Below are positions 1,665 through 57,347 of a DNA stretch of 64,000 nt, piece after piece. The notes under the pieces are model-generated. The model made no database searches. It saw nothing but the letters and a program-made list of their open reading frames with translations, and had not been told where the DNA came from. The stretch covers positions 124,001 through 188,000 of the forward strand of contig NZ_WXYO01000007.1 of assembly GCF_009901585.1 (NCBI RefSeq), read 5' to 3'. Made by a program: the position numbers and the translations under genes. The stretch is from Poritiphilus flavus. GTDB taxonomy: Bacteria; Bacteroidota; Bacteroidia; Flavobacteriales; Flavobacteriaceae. The stretch's first letter is position 1. Every line of letters starts with the position of its first letter.

Positions 1665-3356
1665 ATGTCGGACGACAAGAAAGTTATTTTCTCCATGTCC
1701 GGGGTTAGCAAAACTTACAAAAATGCAAACACCCCGGTATTAAAGAACATCTATCTCAGCTTCTTCTACGGAGCCAAAATAGGAATCCTTGGCCTCAACG
1801 GATCAGGTAAATCGACCTTGCTGAGGATCATTGCAGGGCAAGACAAGAATCATCAGGGAGATGTTGTTTTCTCTCCCGGATACGAAGTAGGATACCTGGA
1901 ACAAGAACCAGTTCTCGACGATTCCAAGACGGTTTTGGAAGTAGTAAAGGAAGGGGTTGCGGAGACCGTGGCAGTCCTGGACGAGTACAATAGTATTAAC
2001 GATCAGTTTGCATTGCCGGAAGTCTATGAGGATGCGGATAAAATGCAGAAACTCATGGACAGGCAGGCACAATTGCAAGATCAGATCGATGCCTCTAATG
2101 CCTGGGAACTCGACACCAAACTGGAGATCGCTATGGATGCCCTTAGAACTCCGGAGGCTGATAAAAAGATCAGCGTTTTGTCCGGAGGTGAGCGCAGGAG
2201 GGTAGCGCTTTGCAGGCTACTGCTTCGGGAACCGGAGATACTGCTGCTGGATGAGCCCACTAACCACCTGGATGCCGAGTCCGTCCACTGGCTGGAGCAC
2301 CATTTGGCTCAATACAAAGGAACTGTCATTGCCGTTACCCACGACCGTTACTTCCTGGATAATGTAGCTGGATGGATACTGGAACTGGACAGGGGAGAGG
2401 GCATACCCTGGAAAGGAAATTACAGCAGTTGGCTCGATCAGAAAGCTAAACGTCTGGCACAGGAAAGCAAACAGGCCTCCAAAAGACAAAAGACCCTGGA
2501 ACGCGAGTTGGAATGGGTAAGGCAGGGTGCCAAAGGAAGGCAGACCAAACAAAAGGCCAGACTAAAGAACTACGACAAATTATTAAGCCAGGATCAGAAA
2601 CAACTGGAGGAAAAACTTGAGATCTATATCCCGAACGGACCCCGTTTGGGGACGAATGTTATAGAGGCTCAGGATGTGAGCAAGGCCTATGACGATAAAT
2701 TGCTTTACGAGTCCTTGAATTTCAAACTTCCCCAGGCGGGGATCGTGGGAGTAATTGGACCCAATGGTGCCGGTAAAACCACCATTTTCAGAATGATAAT
2801 GGGAGAGGAAAACCCGGATAAAGGTGCTTTTGTGGTCGGAGATACCACCAAAGTTGCCTACGTAGATCAGAGTCATTCCAATATTGATCCGGATAAGACA
2901 ATCTGGGAAAATTTTAGCGACAGTCAGGAATTGATCATGATGGGAGGGAGGCAAGTGAACTCCAGGGCTTATCTGAGCCGCTTTAACTTTTCCGGAAGTG
3001 AACAAAATAAAAAGGTTAGCATGCTTTCCGGAGGGGAGCGCAACCGCTTACATTTGGCGATGACCTTAAAGGAAGAGGGGAATGTGCTATTGTTGGATGA
3101 ACCTACCAACGATCTTGATGTTAATACCTTAAGGGCTTTGGAAGAAGGCCTGGAAAATTTTGCCGGTTGTGCGGTAGTCATTTCGCACGATCGCTGGTTC
3201 CTGGATCGTATCTGTACCCACATCTTAGCTTTTGAAGGAGATTCCCAGGTATATTTCTTTGAAGGTTCCTTCTCTGATTACGAGGAGAACAAGAAGAAAA
3301 GACTGGGTGCGGATATTATGCCTCAACGTATTAAGTATAAAAAACTTATTAGGTAG
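1665..3356 (+). CDS. ettA: Energy-dependent translational throttle protein EttA (ABC-F ATPase)
   Basis: The 563-residue protein has two ABC ATPase domains and no membrane segments. Walker A motifs are GLNGSGKST (about residue 43) and GPNGAGKTT (about 365). Signature motifs LSGGERRR and LSGGERNR precede Walker B motifs LLLDEPTNHLD and LLLDEPTNDLD. Between the domains is a charged linker and arm region characteristic of ABC-F proteins. Length and order match EttA (about 555 residues), which binds the ribosomal E site and gates the first elongation step according to ATP/ADP ratio. The gene ends at a strong hairpin terminator shared with the convergent M16 gene. Confidence 0.95.
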   Translation: MSDDKKVIFSMSGVSKTYKNANTPVLKNIYLSFFYGAKIGILGLNGSGKSTLLRIIAGQDKNHQGDVVFSPGYEVGYLEQEPVLDDSKTVLEVVKEGVAETVAVLDEYNSINDQFALPEVYEDADKMQKLMDRQAQLQDQIDASNAWELDTKLEIAMDALRTPEADKKISVLSGGERRRVALCRLLLREPEILLLDEPTNHLDAESVHWLEHHLAQYKGTVIAVTHDRYFLDNVAGWILELDRGEGIPWKGNYSSWLDQKAKRLAQESKQASKRQKTLERELEWVRQGAKGRQTKQKARLKNYDKLLSQDQKQLEEKLEIYIPNGPRLGTNVIEAQDVSKAYDDKLLYESLNFKLPQAGIVGVIGPNGAGKTTIFRMIMGEENPDKGAFVVGDTTKVAYVDQSHSNIDPDKTIWENFSDSQELIMMGGRQVNSRAYLSRFNFSGSEQNKKVSMLSGGERNRLHLAMTLKEEGNVLLLDEPTNDLDVNTLRALEEGLENFAGCAVVISHDRWFLDRICTHILAFEGDSQVYFFEGSFSDYEENKKKRLGADIMPQRIKYKKLIR

Positions 3357-3365
3357 TCTAAAACA

Positions 3366-3394
3366 AAACTCCCGATATGATCGGGAGTTTTTGT
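3366..3394. terminator. Bidirectional hairpin terminator between ettA and the M16 operon
   Basis: A perfect 10-bp stem (AAACTCCCGA / TCGGGAGTTT) with a 5-base TATGA loop is flanked by A-rich sequence on the left and T-rich on the right. It can serve both convergent genes. Confidence 0.85.
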
Positions 3395-3415
3395 TTATAG
3401 TCCAAATATCAAGAC

Positions 3416-11091: not shown

Positions 11092-11571
11092 CTAGGACTC
11101 AGACTTTTTCTTTTTCTTCTTCTTCTTTTTCTTCTTCTCTTTTTTCACTTTCGTATAGCCTTTCTCCTGTAGCTCTACCAGGGCGTTGTACTTGTCTTCC
11201 GGAAGGCCTGCTTTTAATTCAGCCATCTGATTTTTTCGGATCTTTTCCATGCCCTCCCTCATTTTATCCGGTTCCAGGTCCAGAATACGAAGTTCTATGG
11301 TTTGCTGAATGTACTTAGTTAGTATGGAGGCCACTACGGCCTGTTCAAAGTCATTCAATTCCAAAGCCTCATTGATCTTTGGCATTTCGTTGGCCACGAT
11401 CTCTTCAGCAGTTAAGGGTTCCGCTTTTCTTTCAGGAGTTGCCGTTTGCGGGATGGCAGACCGCCCTCTCCTCCCGAAATTATTGTTTCCGTATCCGTAT
11501 TGGGCTTCGGCGATTGGAATAAACAGCAGGGCAAAAAGGATTGACAGGAAATAATTCTTACTCGTACACAT
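11092..11571 (-). CDS. Secreted protein of unknown function with a poly-lysine tail
   Basis: The 159-residue protein has a signal peptide ending IAEAQ (about residue 24), a short Gly/Asn/Arg-rich stretch, a helical middle (about 50-135) and a C-terminal run of more than a dozen lysines broken by one glutamate. The helical segment with NDFEQAVVASILTKYIQQ and KMREGMEKIRKNQMAEL resembles Spy/LTXXQ-like helical periplasmic proteins, but the match is loose. The tail is encoded by repeated AAG/AAA codons, a slip-prone tract. Its relation to the neighbouring ArsC-like gene is unknown. Confidence 0.7.
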   Translation of the reverse strand: MCTSKNYFLSILFALLFIPIAEAQYGYGNNNFGRRGRSAIPQTATPERKAEPLTAEEIVANEMPKINEALELNDFEQAVVASILTKYIQQTIELRILDLEPDKMREGMEKIRKNQMAELKAGLPEDKYNALVELQEKGYTKVKKEKKKKKKKKKKKSES

Positions 11572-35109: not shown

Positions 35110-36387
35110 TTACTGCACTCTCGTGCTTCTGCTTCTTGTATTACTCTTTCCGCTTCTTGAGCTTCTTGAAACCGATTTATTATTGCTTCTTTTCACTGAG
35201 CTTCGGCTTACTGTGCTCTTGTTTGCGGAACTTCTGCTCCCAGATCGGGAGGCAACGCTTCGCTGTGTCCTGTTACTTTTGGTAGCTACCGTTCGCTTAC
35301 TTGCAGACCTGCTCTCAGGTTTCCTATAAGTAGTACTGGTACTCCTCTTCACTGTGGTGCTCCTTGGCGTCTTGGTAACTGTCCTTTTGGTAACTGTCCT
35401 TTTGGTAACAGTCCTATCGGCTCCGTTGCGTACAGAACGAGCTTCTCCTTTTCTAAAGTTACTTCGTTCCGGACCTCTGTTCCTATCTACATTGCTTCGG
35501 TTAACAGTTCGTCTTGCGTTTTCAGTCTTAACTGTATTACTTCGGCGTACGTTTCTGTCGTTGGTAACAGCATCTCCTCTTCGTGAAACATTCCTATTGC
35601 TTCTTCCAACCTTGTCATATCTCGCTGTTACATCCCTGTTACTTCGCAGACCATCATTTCTTGAACTTCTGAAATCCCTGGCTACTACCCGCTTATCATT
35701 GCGATAGATGTTAGACCTTCTGTGGGTTCTGTCGTTCCTGTGATCATACCTGTAGGTTCTTCCAATCCGGGCATACGCTCTTCTTGTGTTAAACCTGTAA
35801 GGTCTGTACCAGGTATACCTAATTGGGCTGTAAAACCTTCTGTAGGGCCTGTCATACACCAGGCAGAATCCTACGGCTGGTCTAACGAAAAACCTGTGAA
35901 ACGGTCTGTATACATAGTAACGATTGAAAGGGTTTATAAAACCGGTGTAGTAATCAAACACACCTCTGTTATTATAGTATACATGTAATCCACCTATTCG
36001 TCTTACCCTGTTATTTCTATACCAGACATTCACATCTCCGATCTGGGAAACCCGTCCGTAATAATCGTAAAAAACGGGTACGTTCTCTACCTGGATCACC
36101 GCTCCGTAATCGTCGTACTGAACAAAGGGATCGTAGTTGAAACCAGAGTTAAAAGTGATGCTCACGTTCCTGGAGTGAAAACCCGCGTTAAAATTTGCAC
36201 GGTTATCAATGTAAAAGTCAAATTCCCCATCCGGATATACCGCGAACGTAATGCCGTTCTCAACAAATATGAACGAGTTGTTGTACCTGATAGCATTGCG
36301 TAGGGCAACCTTATCTTCAGCTGTAGCAGCAGTGGTACTCAATGTTCCTAATGTCAGGGCCGTTAATAAGAGTACAAATCTTTTCAT
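35110..36387 (-). CDS. Secreted protein with Arg/Ser/Asn-rich low-complexity C-terminal half
   Basis: The 425-residue protein has a signal peptide (MKRFVLLLTALTLGTLSTTAATA). Residues about 25-200 are a Tyr/Phe/Asn-rich domain with repeated strand patterns (VYPDGEFDFYI, VFYDYYGRV, VYYNNRGVFDYY). From about 215 to the end the chain is dominated by Arg, Ser, Asn, Thr and Lys, including a TVTKR repeat coded by three 15-bp units at 35371-35415. The tail is extremely basic. Binding to nucleic acid, polysaccharide or membrane is possible; no function is known for the family. Confidence 0.75.
   Translation of the reverse strand: MKRFVLLLTALTLGTLSTTAATAEDKVALRNAIRYNNSFIFVENGITFAVYPDGEFDFYIDNRANFNAGFHSRNVSITFNSGFNYDPFVQYDDYGAVIQVENVPVFYDYYGRVSQIGDVNVWYRNNRVRRIGGLHVYYNNRGVFDYYTGFINPFNRYYVYRPFHRFFVRPAVGFCLVYDRPYRRFYSPIRYTWYRPYRFNTRRAYARIGRTYRYDHRNDRTHRRSNIYRNDKRVVARDFRSSRNDGLRSNRDVTARYDKVGRSNRNVSRRGDAVTNDRNVRRSNTVKTENARRTVNRSNVDRNRGPERSNFRKGEARSVRNGADRTVTKRTVTKRTVTKTPRSTTVKRSTSTTYRKPESRSASKRTVATKSNRTQRSVASRSGSRSSANKSTVSRSSVKRSNNKSVSRSSRSGKSNTRSRSTRVQ
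35371..35415. repeat. Three 15-bp tandem units inside the Arg-rich gene
   Basis: CTTGGTAACTGTCCT, TTTGGTAACTGTCCT and TTTGGTAACAGTCCT are consecutive. On the coding strand they encode repeated RTVTK residues. Confidence 0.85.
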
Positions 36388-54491: not shown

Positions 54492-54558
54492 CCCTCTGGT
54501 TGGTTGTTTGCAGGGCCAGGCTGCCTGTTGCCATACCCATACCAACCGAACCAGAGGG
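54492..54558. repeat. Imperfect long inverted repeat between the GT2 and sterol-desaturase genes
   Basis: CCCTCTGGTTGGTTG (54492-54506) pairs with CAACCGAACCAGAGGG (54543-54558) over 15 bp with one bulged base; the 36-base interior has a small CAGG/CCTG stem. There is no T-run on either strand, so it is not an ordinary terminator. Confidence 0.65.
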
Positions 54559-54581: not shown

Positions 54582-55370
54582 TTATTCATTTTTACTAACC
54601 GAATCGGATTTTGAGACATCCCTGAACATCAGCATGTCTTTGATCTTTGCAGATGCTCCCAGATAGAAACCCGTCTCGTGGTCGTAATCCTTTGGATTTC
54701 TGAAAGTGCCGAACAAGATGTCAAAAATTGGCAGATCGGAATAGTTATAAGCATGTATACCTTTCGCGTGGTGTACGGTATGCGCTTCAGGACGCTGTAC
54801 CAAATACCCTACCCAGACCGGAGTTTTGATATTACTGTGCTGGAAGATCGCCAGAAAAGTCGTGATAAGAATTATTAATGTACTCGCTTCAGCTGTGAAA
54901 CCTGCAACCACTACCAGGCAAAGACTTCCGAGGAAAGTAAAGCCTATCATATCCATTGGGCTGAAATAAAAGGCTCCAAAGCTATCCATACGTTCCGCAC
55001 TGTGATGCATCTGGTGGAAGATCTTCCAAAGTGCATTGTTGCTATGCATAGCCCTGTGCCAGATGTACAATCCAAATTCATAGATCAGGATTCCTACCAG
55101 GGCTCCCCAATAGGTGCCCAGAACAGAGAGGTCCAGTAGTTGGTAGTTTGCCAGAAACCCATCCCAAAGAATCGGCAAATAAGAAGAAAGGAAAAAGAAG
55201 AATACAAAAGAGAGCATTCCTTTTAATTTCCAGAATTTTAGTTTAGGTAGTTCCCTGGCAGGAAATAAAGCTTCCCATAACATCAAGCCGCCATACATGG
55301 CGAATACGATATAGGAAATAGGGTTTAAAACAAGTTCCAGGGGCTTCGGTAAATTCAATATGGTTTCCAT
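54582..55370 (-). CDS. Sterol desaturase/fatty acid hydroxylase family membrane enzyme
   Basis: The 262-residue protein has four or so membrane helices and the di-iron histidine clusters HRAMH, HQMHH, QHSN and HTVHH. The enzymes insert oxygen or a double bond into lipids at the membrane using O2 and an electron donor. Possible substrates in this group are hopanoid-, sterol-, carotenoid- or fatty-acid-type lipids; the sequence does not choose. Two 14-bp direct repeats lie about 150-205 bases upstream of the ATG, and a TPR/HTH regulator gene lies just beyond. Confidence 0.9.
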   Translation of the reverse strand: METILNLPKPLELVLNPISYIVFAMYGGLMLWEALFPARELPKLKFWKLKGMLSFVFFFFLSSYLPILWDGFLANYQLLDLSVLGTYWGALVGILIYEFGLYIWHRAMHSNNALWKIFHQMHHSAERMDSFGAFYFSPMDMIGFTFLGSLCLVVVAGFTAEASTLIILITTFLAIFQHSNIKTPVWVGYLVQRPEAHTVHHAKGIHAYNYSDLPIFDILFGTFRNPKDYDHETGFYLGASAKIKDMLMFRDVSKSDSVSKNE

Positions 55371-55453
55371 TTCGATTACTTTTTAATTTGCTAATAAGCT
55401 GTTCTTTTTCAATGATTTACGTTCAATTATTGCAATGGCTTTTTTCCAGGATG

Positions 55454-55461
55454 CAAATGTA
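55454..55461 (-). promoter_or_regulatory. Putative minus-7 box of the sterol-desaturase gene
   Basis: The reverse strand reads TACATTTG, an exact TAnnTTTG match, 83 bases upstream of the ATG. No TTG is visible at the minus-33 position, which would fit an activator-dependent promoter. Confidence 0.45.
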
Positions 55462-55521
55462 TTTCGGCTTTTTAAGCTTCGGAAATAGAAGGAGTAGACC
55501 TTTGGCATACACCTTGCCGAT

Positions 55522-55577
55522 ATGAGGTAGACAATGAAGAGAAGGTGTTAAAATTTGGGGTACATGAGGTAGACAAT
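55522..55577. repeat. Two 14-bp direct repeats spaced 42 bp, candidate operators
   Basis: ATGAGGTAGACAAT occurs exactly at 55522-55535 and 55564-55577. The 42-bp start-to-start distance is four helical turns, putting both on one DNA face. They lie about 60-115 bases upstream of the minus-7 box at 55454 and before the 3' end of the TPR/HTH gene. Confidence 0.7.
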
Positions 55578-55640
55578 ACTTAACAAAGTATTGATTTCAA
55601 AATGATTGTGGATTTTGGAAAGCCGCTTATCCCTGGCTGC

Positions 55641-57347
55641 CTATTTTCTGGCAGACTGCTCTAATTCAAGGAAATAATCCAATATTTCCTGCTCGGGTTC
55701 TAAACCAAGTTTTTTTCGCAGTCGGTATCTGGCGGTCTTCGCGCTTTCAGGAGAAATACCCAGAATACTTGAACTTTCCTTAATGCTTAAGTTCAATCTG
55801 GTAAGGGCACAGATCTTCAGATCGTTGGCGCTTAGGTCCGGATGCTTTTCTTTTAGCCTGAGATAAAAGTCGGTATGTACTTCTTCAAAGGACCTTTTAA
55901 AGTCTTCCCAGTCCCTATCAATAGTTACATGTTGTCTGATAGTGCGTTCAAGATCTGCCAATAGTCTTGCCTGATTGGCCACGGGCGCACTCTTTACCTC
56001 TTTTATTTTCTCCTGCAGCTGGTGCATCAATTCATTTTTTTGAACAAAATTCAGGGTATAGGAGGTTAATTCCTTGTTCTTGAAAGCCAGTTGCTGTTGC
56101 AGTTCTTTCTGTTTTAAATTGGCATTTTCCAGAGCGGTTTTGGCCAGTTCCTCCCGGGAGGCCATCAATTCTTGTTTTCTGTTGACCAACTCCCGTTCCT
56201 TTTGGGTTTTTTGACGCTGATTGTAGAAAATCAGAAAGCCGATAATTCCCAATCCAAGCAGTCCCAGGCCAAGGCTCCAATTTATAATGGAACTCGTCTT
56301 TTCTTTCTGTTGTAGTAATGCGATCTCTTTCTGCTGATCTTCCAATTCCTGTCCAAATTCCAATGCCGCGATCTGTTTGGATTTATCGGCATTGAATATG
56401 GAGTCTTTTAAGGTCAGATAGGCGTCGTAATAATGCAGGGATTCCTGAAACAATCCCAGTTCTTTTTTCAACAGTTTTAGCTCTTTATAGGCCGCAAGCA
56501 TATATTTTCGCAGCCCCTTCTTTTGAGCAAGTTCCAAGGCTTCCAGAAGATGTTCTTCTGAATCGGGATGATTCCGCCGCAGTCGCTGAAGTTTACCAAA
56601 TTGGATCAAATTTCCGATATACCCATCTTCATCATTCACCTTACTCCCGTATTCAACTGCCTTTTTAAGATGATAGTCGGCCTGCTCCAACTCCCCTCGT
56701 TCCAGAAGTACTATGGCCAGTTTGTTGTGCGCCTCTCCCATGCCGTAGACATAGTTGTTGTCCGAGTGCATATTTAGGGCATTGGTCAGGTAATCCTTGG
56801 CCTCATCATAAGAACCTTGCATCAACAATACATCTCCTATTTTGGTGAAGGTGGTGGCGATTCGGGCTTTGAGCCCCAGTTCTGTGAATTTTTGGATGGA
56901 CTGATCGTAGATGGAAAGTGATTTTTCATAATCACTGATGTCTGCATAGACCATCCCGGTATTCATAAGCGCATTGGCATAACCCTCCTGATCGCCTATT
57001 TGTGTATAGATTTCCTGGGAGCTGTAGAGATTTTCAAGGGCCAGTTTTGCTTTACCCTGGGTCCAATAGGCCACCCCCAGGACCCTTTTGGCCTTAGCCA
57101 TCCCCGGTTTATATTGGAGCTTTTCGGAGAGTTCCAGCGCTTTGTTCCCAAAATCTACCGAGGTACCTGAGTTGACGATCCAATAGCGATATCCCAGTTC
57201 ATTAAGAATATCGATCCTTTGCTCATCTTCAGTCTTAGACAATGAAAGCTCGTTTTCAAGGCTATCAATGATCTGCTCGGTCCTTTGAGCCAGGCCGGGC
57301 ATTAAGAATGAGCAATTGAATAGTATCAGACAAAGTAATACGCGCAT
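55641..57347 (-). CDS. Membrane-tethered TPR protein with C-terminal LuxR-like HTH
   Basis: The 568-residue protein has a signal peptide (MRVLLCLILFNCSFLMPGLAQ), seven or so TPR-type repeats (about 60-330), one membrane helix (about 352-371), a coiled coil (about 375-460) and a C-terminal HTH. The HTH reads LSANDLKICALTRLNLSIKE followed by SPESAKTARYRLRKKL. The layout puts TPRs in the periplasm and the HTH in the cytoplasm, as in Bacteroidota one-component membrane regulators. It may sense a periplasmic partner and control a nearby gene. Confidence 0.88.
   Translation of the reverse strand: MRVLLCLILFNCSFLMPGLAQRTEQIIDSLENELSLSKTEDEQRIDILNELGYRYWIVNSGTSVDFGNKALELSEKLQYKPGMAKAKRVLGVAYWTQGKAKLALENLYSSQEIYTQIGDQEGYANALMNTGMVYADISDYEKSLSIYDQSIQKFTELGLKARIATTFTKIGDVLLMQGSYDEAKDYLTNALNMHSDNNYVYGMGEAHNKLAIVLLERGELEQADYHLKKAVEYGSKVNDEDGYIGNLIQFGKLQRLRRNHPDSEEHLLEALELAQKKGLRKYMLAAYKELKLLKKELGLFQESLHYYDAYLTLKDSIFNADKSKQIAALEFGQELEDQQKEIALLQQKEKTSSIINWSLGLGLLGLGIIGFLIFYNQRQKTQKERELVNRKQELMASREELAKTALENANLKQKELQQQLAFKNKELTSYTLNFVQKNELMHQLQEKIKEVKSAPVANQARLLADLERTIRQHVTIDRDWEDFKRSFEEVHTDFYLRLKEKHPDLSANDLKICALTRLNLSIKESSSILGISPESAKTARYRLRKKLGLEPEQEILDYFLELEQSARK

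Follow-up and report, generated by a model that had tools for sequence, protein, structure and literature searches.

The window analysed here, a 64,000-nucleotide stretch of the Poritiphilus flavus genome, contains two genes on the minus strand that are separated by a 270-bp gap. The downstream gene (54582..55370) encodes a 262-aa membrane enzyme of the FA_hydroxylase ("sterol desaturase") superfamily (PF04116, 99.6 bits), which scored 63.2 bits against the OlsE model and did not reach its cut-off of 475. Between this gene and a glycosyltransferase gene lies an inverted repeat identified by eye (CCCTCTGG ... CCAGAGGG, 54492-54558), possibly a terminator. The upstream gene (55641..57347) encodes a 568-aa TPR-TM-coiled coil-HTH protein with a signal-peptide-like N-terminus, a TPR region (residues about 42-300), one hydrophobic segment (about 353-375) and a GerE/LuxR-like helix-turn-helix (HTH) domain (about 505-565); its recognition helix reads KTARYRLRKK and includes Tyr541. 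By its sequence this protein is membrane-tethered, consistent with the adjacent HTH regulator described in a sequence-only reading of the locus.

Within the gap, ATGAGGTAGACAAT was located as two exact copies 42 bp apart (55522-55535 and 55564-55577), just as that reading had reported; on the desaturase strand the repeat reads ATTGTCTACCTCAT, which contains TGTCTACC. The genome search that it had suggested was run and detected no third exact copy across the 5-Mb P. flavus genome, while tolerating up to two mismatches gave 62 matches (2 exact, 2 with one mismatch and 58 with two), compared with 40 for the reversed pattern. A regulon built from the two-mismatch matches was dropped: elsewhere in the genome the paired half-site pattern turned up only once (C10:344205), no more often than in the control, and the promoter profile described below had no match there. 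Exact 14-mers repeated 14-200 bp apart were detected three times in the window, at 11108 (low complexity), 35372 (a 15-bp tandem) and 55522, compared with a mean of 0.07 per window and a maximum of 1 in 60 under a first-order Markov null, and the repeat on its own is therefore modestly unusual. The 15-bp tandem repeat (35372-35409) is perfect across overlapping 14-mers. The ATGAGGTAGACAAT repeat is adjoined by a diverged 28-nt repeat (71%; 55484-55511 and 55537-55564) and by a hairpin (CAATACTT/AAGTATTG, 55574-55593) that shares two bases with half-site 1 (see below); the hairpin was considered as a source of the repeat and is thought not to account for it. The repeat is judged to be real through its conservation in relatives.

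Reading towards the desaturase gene, the gap contains a -7 box, TACATTTG (55454..55461, minus strand), conforming to the Bacteroidetes sigma-A consensus TAnnTTTG. Taking the box to lie at -12 to -5 (PMC9723704), the transcription start would be near 55449. By eye there is no TTG at the -33 position in the window, in agreement with the earlier description of an otherwise weak promoter, and a sigma-70 promoter scan found one promoter with 1.1 expected, equivalent to chance. Upstream of the box we identified five half-sites, all on the minus strand. Half-site 1, TGTCTACC (55568..55575), lies -114 from the -7 box within the second 14-mer, and half-site 2, TGTACCCC (55557..55564), at -103, forms an 11-bp tandem with it. 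Half-site 3, again TGTCTACC (55526..55533), lies at -72 within the first 14-mer. Half-site 4, TGTATGCC (55504..55511), is degenerate and lies at -50, forming an 11-bp tandem with half-site 5, GGTCTACT (55493..55500), which at -39 adjoins the empty -33 position. The steps of this array (11, 31, 22 and 11 bp) are near whole helical turns, with two 11-bp tandem pairs placed either side of a single middle site. Half-sites 2, 4 and 5 had been overlooked, such that the sequence-only reading of the repeats is correct but too small: the repeat stands, while the unit is not the 14-mer but TGTCTACC, often in 11-bp tandem.

An intergenic DNA search of 60 genomes matched three, namely the P. flavus genome itself and two others with pieces of only 29-32 bp. 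The promoter is thus too diverged for DNA search, so relatives were sought via the protein. Many TGTCTACC-like words were present in the intergenic regions of the desaturase relatives, and 29 promoters were chosen by anchoring on the TAnnTTTG box, which is present in 29/29 by selection. Relative to the box, half-sites occur at about -114, -103, -92, -71/-72, -50 and -39. The position of half-site 1 ranges from -113 to -116 in relatives, half-site 2 is TGTCTACC-like in many of them, and across the 29 promoters there were 28 calls at -71/-72 and 15 at -39, with half-site 4 being weakest in relatives too (6 calls at -49/-50). In one subgroup the upstream pair is 11 bp, or one turn, closer to the box (-103/-92 rather than -114/-103). 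An A/T-rich element around TNTCANNNTATTT (55581-55596 in the window) was noticed by eye in many promoters, occupying about -135 to -120 relative to the -7 box; it stays put even where the upstream sites move by one turn. Additionally, 20 of the 29 promoters (e.g. L110, L103, L093 and L144) are followed by a short basic open frame (30-45 codons), whose end falls within 8 bp of the desaturase start or overlaps it by up to 2; many of these frames have a common W-x-R-R-K-like core, and none was listed for the window.

The half-sites are phased on the DNA helix. For 68 half-sites in 20 promoters with <70% ungapped identity, the Rayleigh R was 0.92 near 10.75 bp, a value matched by 0/2000 random sets, which overstate independence here because the promoters and their regulators are related by descent; for the same reason the counts of phasing, linkage and covariation reported in this work are not independent trials. 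In promoters <70% identical the half-sites are conserved above the intervening sequence and their positions are fixed. When 31 promoters of non-syntenic orthologs were aligned to their own -7 boxes, 20 half-site calls were obtained and these were scattered. The proposal of two sites on one DNA face therefore survives with respect to the shared face, while the number of sites is five.

To relate the array to the regulator gene, we used desaturase relatives comprising the best 80 of 99 confirmed loci, together with further loci from additional genomes, and scored loci with at least two sites (up to two mismatches to TGTCTACCT) within 450 bp. Among the 80 loci, such sites were present in 22/23 with a TPR-HTH gene just upstream, compared with 5/57 without (Fisher p 6e-14). 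The reversed-sequence control gave 3 of 23 and 9 of 57 at the same loci, such that the loci without a linked regulator do not exceed the control. The single miss among the linked loci, L070, has a degenerate array. The sequence-only reading had singled out absence of the repeats upstream of orthologous desaturase genes as evidence against it; these counts show that such absence does occur and mainly coincides with absence of the regulator gene.

L158 and the 57 loci lacking close linkage, 58 in total, were then scanned with a promoter profile, and 55 of them gave no match at an E value of 1 or better. Each of the three matches (L079, L091 and L158) has a regulator gene nearby. L158 (64 bits) and L091 (52 bits), neither of which was used in profile construction, have the array on the 3' side of the regulator gene, while L079 was among the sequences used for the profile. 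L091 is rearranged: the array lies directly 3' of the regulator gene, followed by a methyltransferase-like gene and then the desaturase gene (names assigned by eye). In L079 the regulator gene is on the opposite strand, 3' of the desaturase gene and separated from it by one gene, and the desaturase promoter still carries the array. These two rearrangements indicate that the sites are part of the target promoter and not of the regulator 3' end. L079 also contains a second array in the opposite orientation (3307-3415, minus strand), with AAGGTAGACAAT occurring twice, 32 bp apart (by eye). This array faces a gene with CxxCH motifs that appears c-type-cytochrome-like by eye, and a single regulator may therefore act at two promoters.

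The regulator itself was examined by sequence and structure comparison. Its Pfam domains are TPR families only, with no STAND-type ATPase domain preceding the TPR region, and the protein also has long helices. An AlphaFold2 model of the C-terminal domain (pLDDT 84) resembles the DNA-binding domains of NarL, DosR and GerE; the comparison with the DosR C-terminal domain gave a TMt of 0.82 and rmsd of 1.9 at a Foldseek E value of 0.08, and no Foldseek match reached 0.001 or better. The closest sequence match to a solved structure had an E value of 0.014. In Pfam the window regulator falls below the cut-offs for both GerE (13.1 of 23.5 bits) and Sigma70_r4_2 (17.6 of 25.7 bits), and the GerE cut-off is exceeded by its paralogs L174 (27.0 bits) and L175 (25.3 bits). 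The model predicts a GerE/NarL-like fold for the DNA-binding domain; the weak Foldseek E values and the Pfam scores, with Sigma70_r4_2 above GerE, count against this assignment.

This type of HTH is widespread, with matches in 21/37 genomes examined and 10 in the P. flavus genome. When the same promoter profile, as a DNA-only profile (R1), was run against the P. flavus genome, the window promoter scored 70 bits. The two next-best matches (22 bits each) are each located immediately 3' of a paralogous TPR-HTH gene; the genes that follow are lipoprotein-like (by eye, no Pfam match) and Thiol_cytolysin (PF01289). These cassettes (L175:5-1366, minus strand, and L174:1702-3090, plus strand, on C12 and C10) precede a Thiol_cytolysin-family and a lipoprotein-like gene. 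Three weaker matches (8-11 bits) in the same genome have no adjoining TPR-HTH gene, which counts against a regulator-linked operator. Across 149 family genomes, R1 returned 34 rows, comprising 3 desaturase promoters, 3 rows without a locus that were left uncounted, and 28 that were examined; one uncounted row (G127:C2) overlaps a locus, L327, that lacks a TPR-HTH gene on its 5' side. Among the 28, 11 matches follow a TPR-HTH stop codon on the same strand at a distance of 0-40 bp, and 17 have no TPR-HTH gene beside them, again counting against that reading.

A motif-free test was applied to 55 of the 82 paralog rows besides the window's own (27 with frames of at least 700 aa were dropped); these 55 loci represent 52 distinct genes, owing to overlaps between L285/L295, L298/L299 and L313/L316. 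Within 260 bp downstream of the genes, the spacing of exact 7-mer direct repeats peaked at 11 bp, with 13 loci and no duplicate among them, compared with up to 4 loci at other spacings and a mean of 1.1 (maximum 5) in shuffles. Half-sites starting with TGT made up 10/13. Against this, an exact 11-bp repeat is missing downstream at 42/55 loci, and at 8/55 one is found upstream of the paralog gene instead (shuffles, mean 1.2 and maximum 5). The layout is seen to recur, as a putative regulator-operator-target cassette, around paralogous regulators.

Thirteen of the paralog cassettes could be aligned over a conserved 5' leader that follows the promoter (L174:1592-1704, plus strand; L175:1373-1501, minus strand; L187, L188, L281, L211, L212, L213, L215, L221, L223, L231 and L236). 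It comprises a small hairpin, recognised by eye, followed by GTTTTGTGG...GGCTGCAGACC...CACAAAAC; a second CCACAAAAC is found ahead of the start codon and could also pair with that GTTTTGTGG. The predicted outer stem has 7 pairs, one of them with a two-sided change, and the leader may be a switching RNA. Rfam gave no match above the gathering score for the leader, nor for the window region and 13 paralog loci, and the leader was not seen in the window promoter.

Within one clade, the recognition helices of the paralogs vary together with their operator words: KKARY occurs with TGTC[TC]ACC or near variants, KKARQ with TGTACCCC and KKARN, in one case, with TGTCACCC. Tandems of TGTACCCC and of TGTCYACC were searched for in 397 family genomes. 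For TGTACCCC there were 11 places, all examined (reversed control, 2); seven are beside a TPR-HTH gene, with Gln in 7/7, and four are not (L327, L332, L334 and L335, with L332 and L334 overlapping). For TGTCYACC there were 61 places (reversed control, 4), 30 of which were examined; nine are beside a TPR-HTH gene, with Tyr in 9/9, a further 18 lie within open frames (711-762 nt) that have one word in common and were taken as coding background, and three are neither (L360, L364 and L365). Of the 16 positives, 13 were new (5 Gln and 8 Tyr) and three were already known (L330, L333 and L340); the clades are related by descent, so 16/16 does not represent 16 events. The window regulator, with Tyr541 and TGTCTACC, agrees with the pairing of Tyr and TGTCYACC. 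Outside the clade, Tyr is found with other words, TGTTAAG (L289), TGTAGAC (L284) and TGTCTAT (L318), indicating that the helix code is not general, and exceptions are provided by L235 (Ser with TGTCCACC/TGTCCCCC) and L267 (KKARY with the array absent).

On the evidence of related bacteria, the protein predicted to dock on the array is the membrane-anchored regulator encoded by the neighbouring gene. We consider it very likely that the array is the operator of this GerE-like TPR-HTH regulator, which would bind it and activate the desaturase gene. The TPR domain would sense a signal, most likely periplasmic, and relay it through a single membrane helix and the coiled coil to cytoplasmic GerE-like HTH domains, several of which would sit side by side, presumably cooperatively, on one face of the promoter. 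The bound regulator would then recruit RNA polymerase to the TAnnTTTG box and turn the desaturase gene on; because half-site 5 adjoins the position of the absent -33 element, the contact with polymerase is probably made by the regulator. The layout from which an activator had originally been proposed is borne out in its elements, and it is from this layout that activation is deduced. The same operator and regulator might instead repress the promoter or keep it silent until a signal arrives, as the sign of regulation is not directly readable in sequence and half-site 5 is near the expected polymerase footprint. However, all five sites are upstream of the -7 box, with none overlapping the box or the likely start, and a missing -33 TTG is what would be expected of an activator-dependent promoter, which makes repression unlikely.

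Classical operators of GerE-type proteins are palindromic, and OmpR/PhoB-type response regulators also use 11-bp direct repeats. The heptamer repeats with 4-nt spacers seen here are of the type described for SARP operators (PMC5930380), which raises the question of whether the array is instead bound by a different kind of protein, such as an OmpR/PhoB-type response regulator, with the TPR-HTH gene a mere neighbour. The linkage to TPR-HTH genes, the DNA-only matches beside TPR-HTH paralogs and the 16/16 covariation of Tyr and Gln with the operator word argue for the neighbouring regulator, rendering a different binder quite improbable, and a two-component response regulator was set aside on the linkage. 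It is extremely unlikely that the exact repeat is a functionless product of recent local duplication or chance: although the 71% 28-nt repeat is adjacent and the null permits about one repeated 14-mer per 15 windows, half-sites are conserved at fixed places in promoters <70% identical.

Within the open-access literature, searched by title and the start of the abstract, we found no operator description for TPR-type regulators of this phylum. MalT of enterobacteria is a soluble STAND ATPase with a TPR-like sensor and a C-terminal LuxR-type HTH, activating transcription from direct repeats; the window system shares the sensor type, HTH position and direct repeats, whereas its regulator has TPR families only and is membrane-tethered by sequence. 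SARPs are actinobacterial regulators with another type of HTH. Together with the SusR-like regulators, their operators are the nearest precedents. In the account of PimR, heptamer direct repeats with 4-nt spacers and an 11-bp period are thought to place monomers on one DNA face, at least two repeats are needed, and the regulator activates (PMC5930380); the window shares only this geometry, its HTH being GerE-like by model. SusR-like regulators of Bacteroides are described as one-component proteins that associate with the membrane, carry a C-terminal HTH and regulate genes next to their own, with predicted operators of direct repeats on one DNA side (two sites, centres 67 or 77 bp apart) and motif similarity tracking regulator similarity (PMC3878776). 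The window system resembles these in membrane association, C-terminal HTH, neighbouring target and same-face direct repeats, and differs in having five half-sites at 11/31/22/11-bp steps and a lipid-type enzyme as target rather than a sus-type locus. Against the NCBIfam SusR_regulator model the window regulator scored 28.2 bits (cut-off 480) over the TPR part only (residues 21-230), and nothing in the P. flavus genome scored above the cut-off. As for the periplasmic oligosaccharide sensing of the SusR family, the features observed in the window regulator are its signal-peptide-like N-terminus and one hydrophobic segment.

The 10-12-TM LuxR regulators of Eggerthella are membrane-spanning activators encoded near their targets, and the passages on them describe no operator (PMC9734109); their sensor is polytopic, in contrast to the TPR domain and single TM helix of the window regulator. 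The latter also scored 70.7 bits against the BT3442 family (NCBIfam NF053779; best stretch residues 291-551, cut-off 940). BT_3442 of Bacteroides thetaiotaomicron lies beside a cluster of potential pore-forming proteins, and the passage on this locus describes it only as a TPR protein and not as a regulator (PMC2954219). A potentially pore-forming neighbour is likewise found at the P. flavus TPR-HTH cassette that precedes the Thiol_cytolysin-family gene.

If the cassette rule holds, many such regulators would have a target and a binding site readable from sequence, the single-residue switch would be directly testable, and the signal for the desaturase gene could be sought with a simple reporter. 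More broadly, Flavobacteriaceae may possess a large family of membrane-tethered TPR-GerE regulators in which many genes directly precede their own operator, an 11-bp tandem of half-sites that start with TGT on one face, and in which, for the KKAR(Y/Q/N) clade, the helix allows the operator to be deduced (TGTCYACC for Tyr, TGTACCCC for Gln and, in one case, TGTCACCC for Asn). We give this slightly better than even chances, having lowered our estimate because Tyr also occurs with other words outside the clade. The window array would then be an elaborate form, with five half-sites, and the family would offer a readable protein-DNA code by which targets could be assigned to many orphan membrane regulators.
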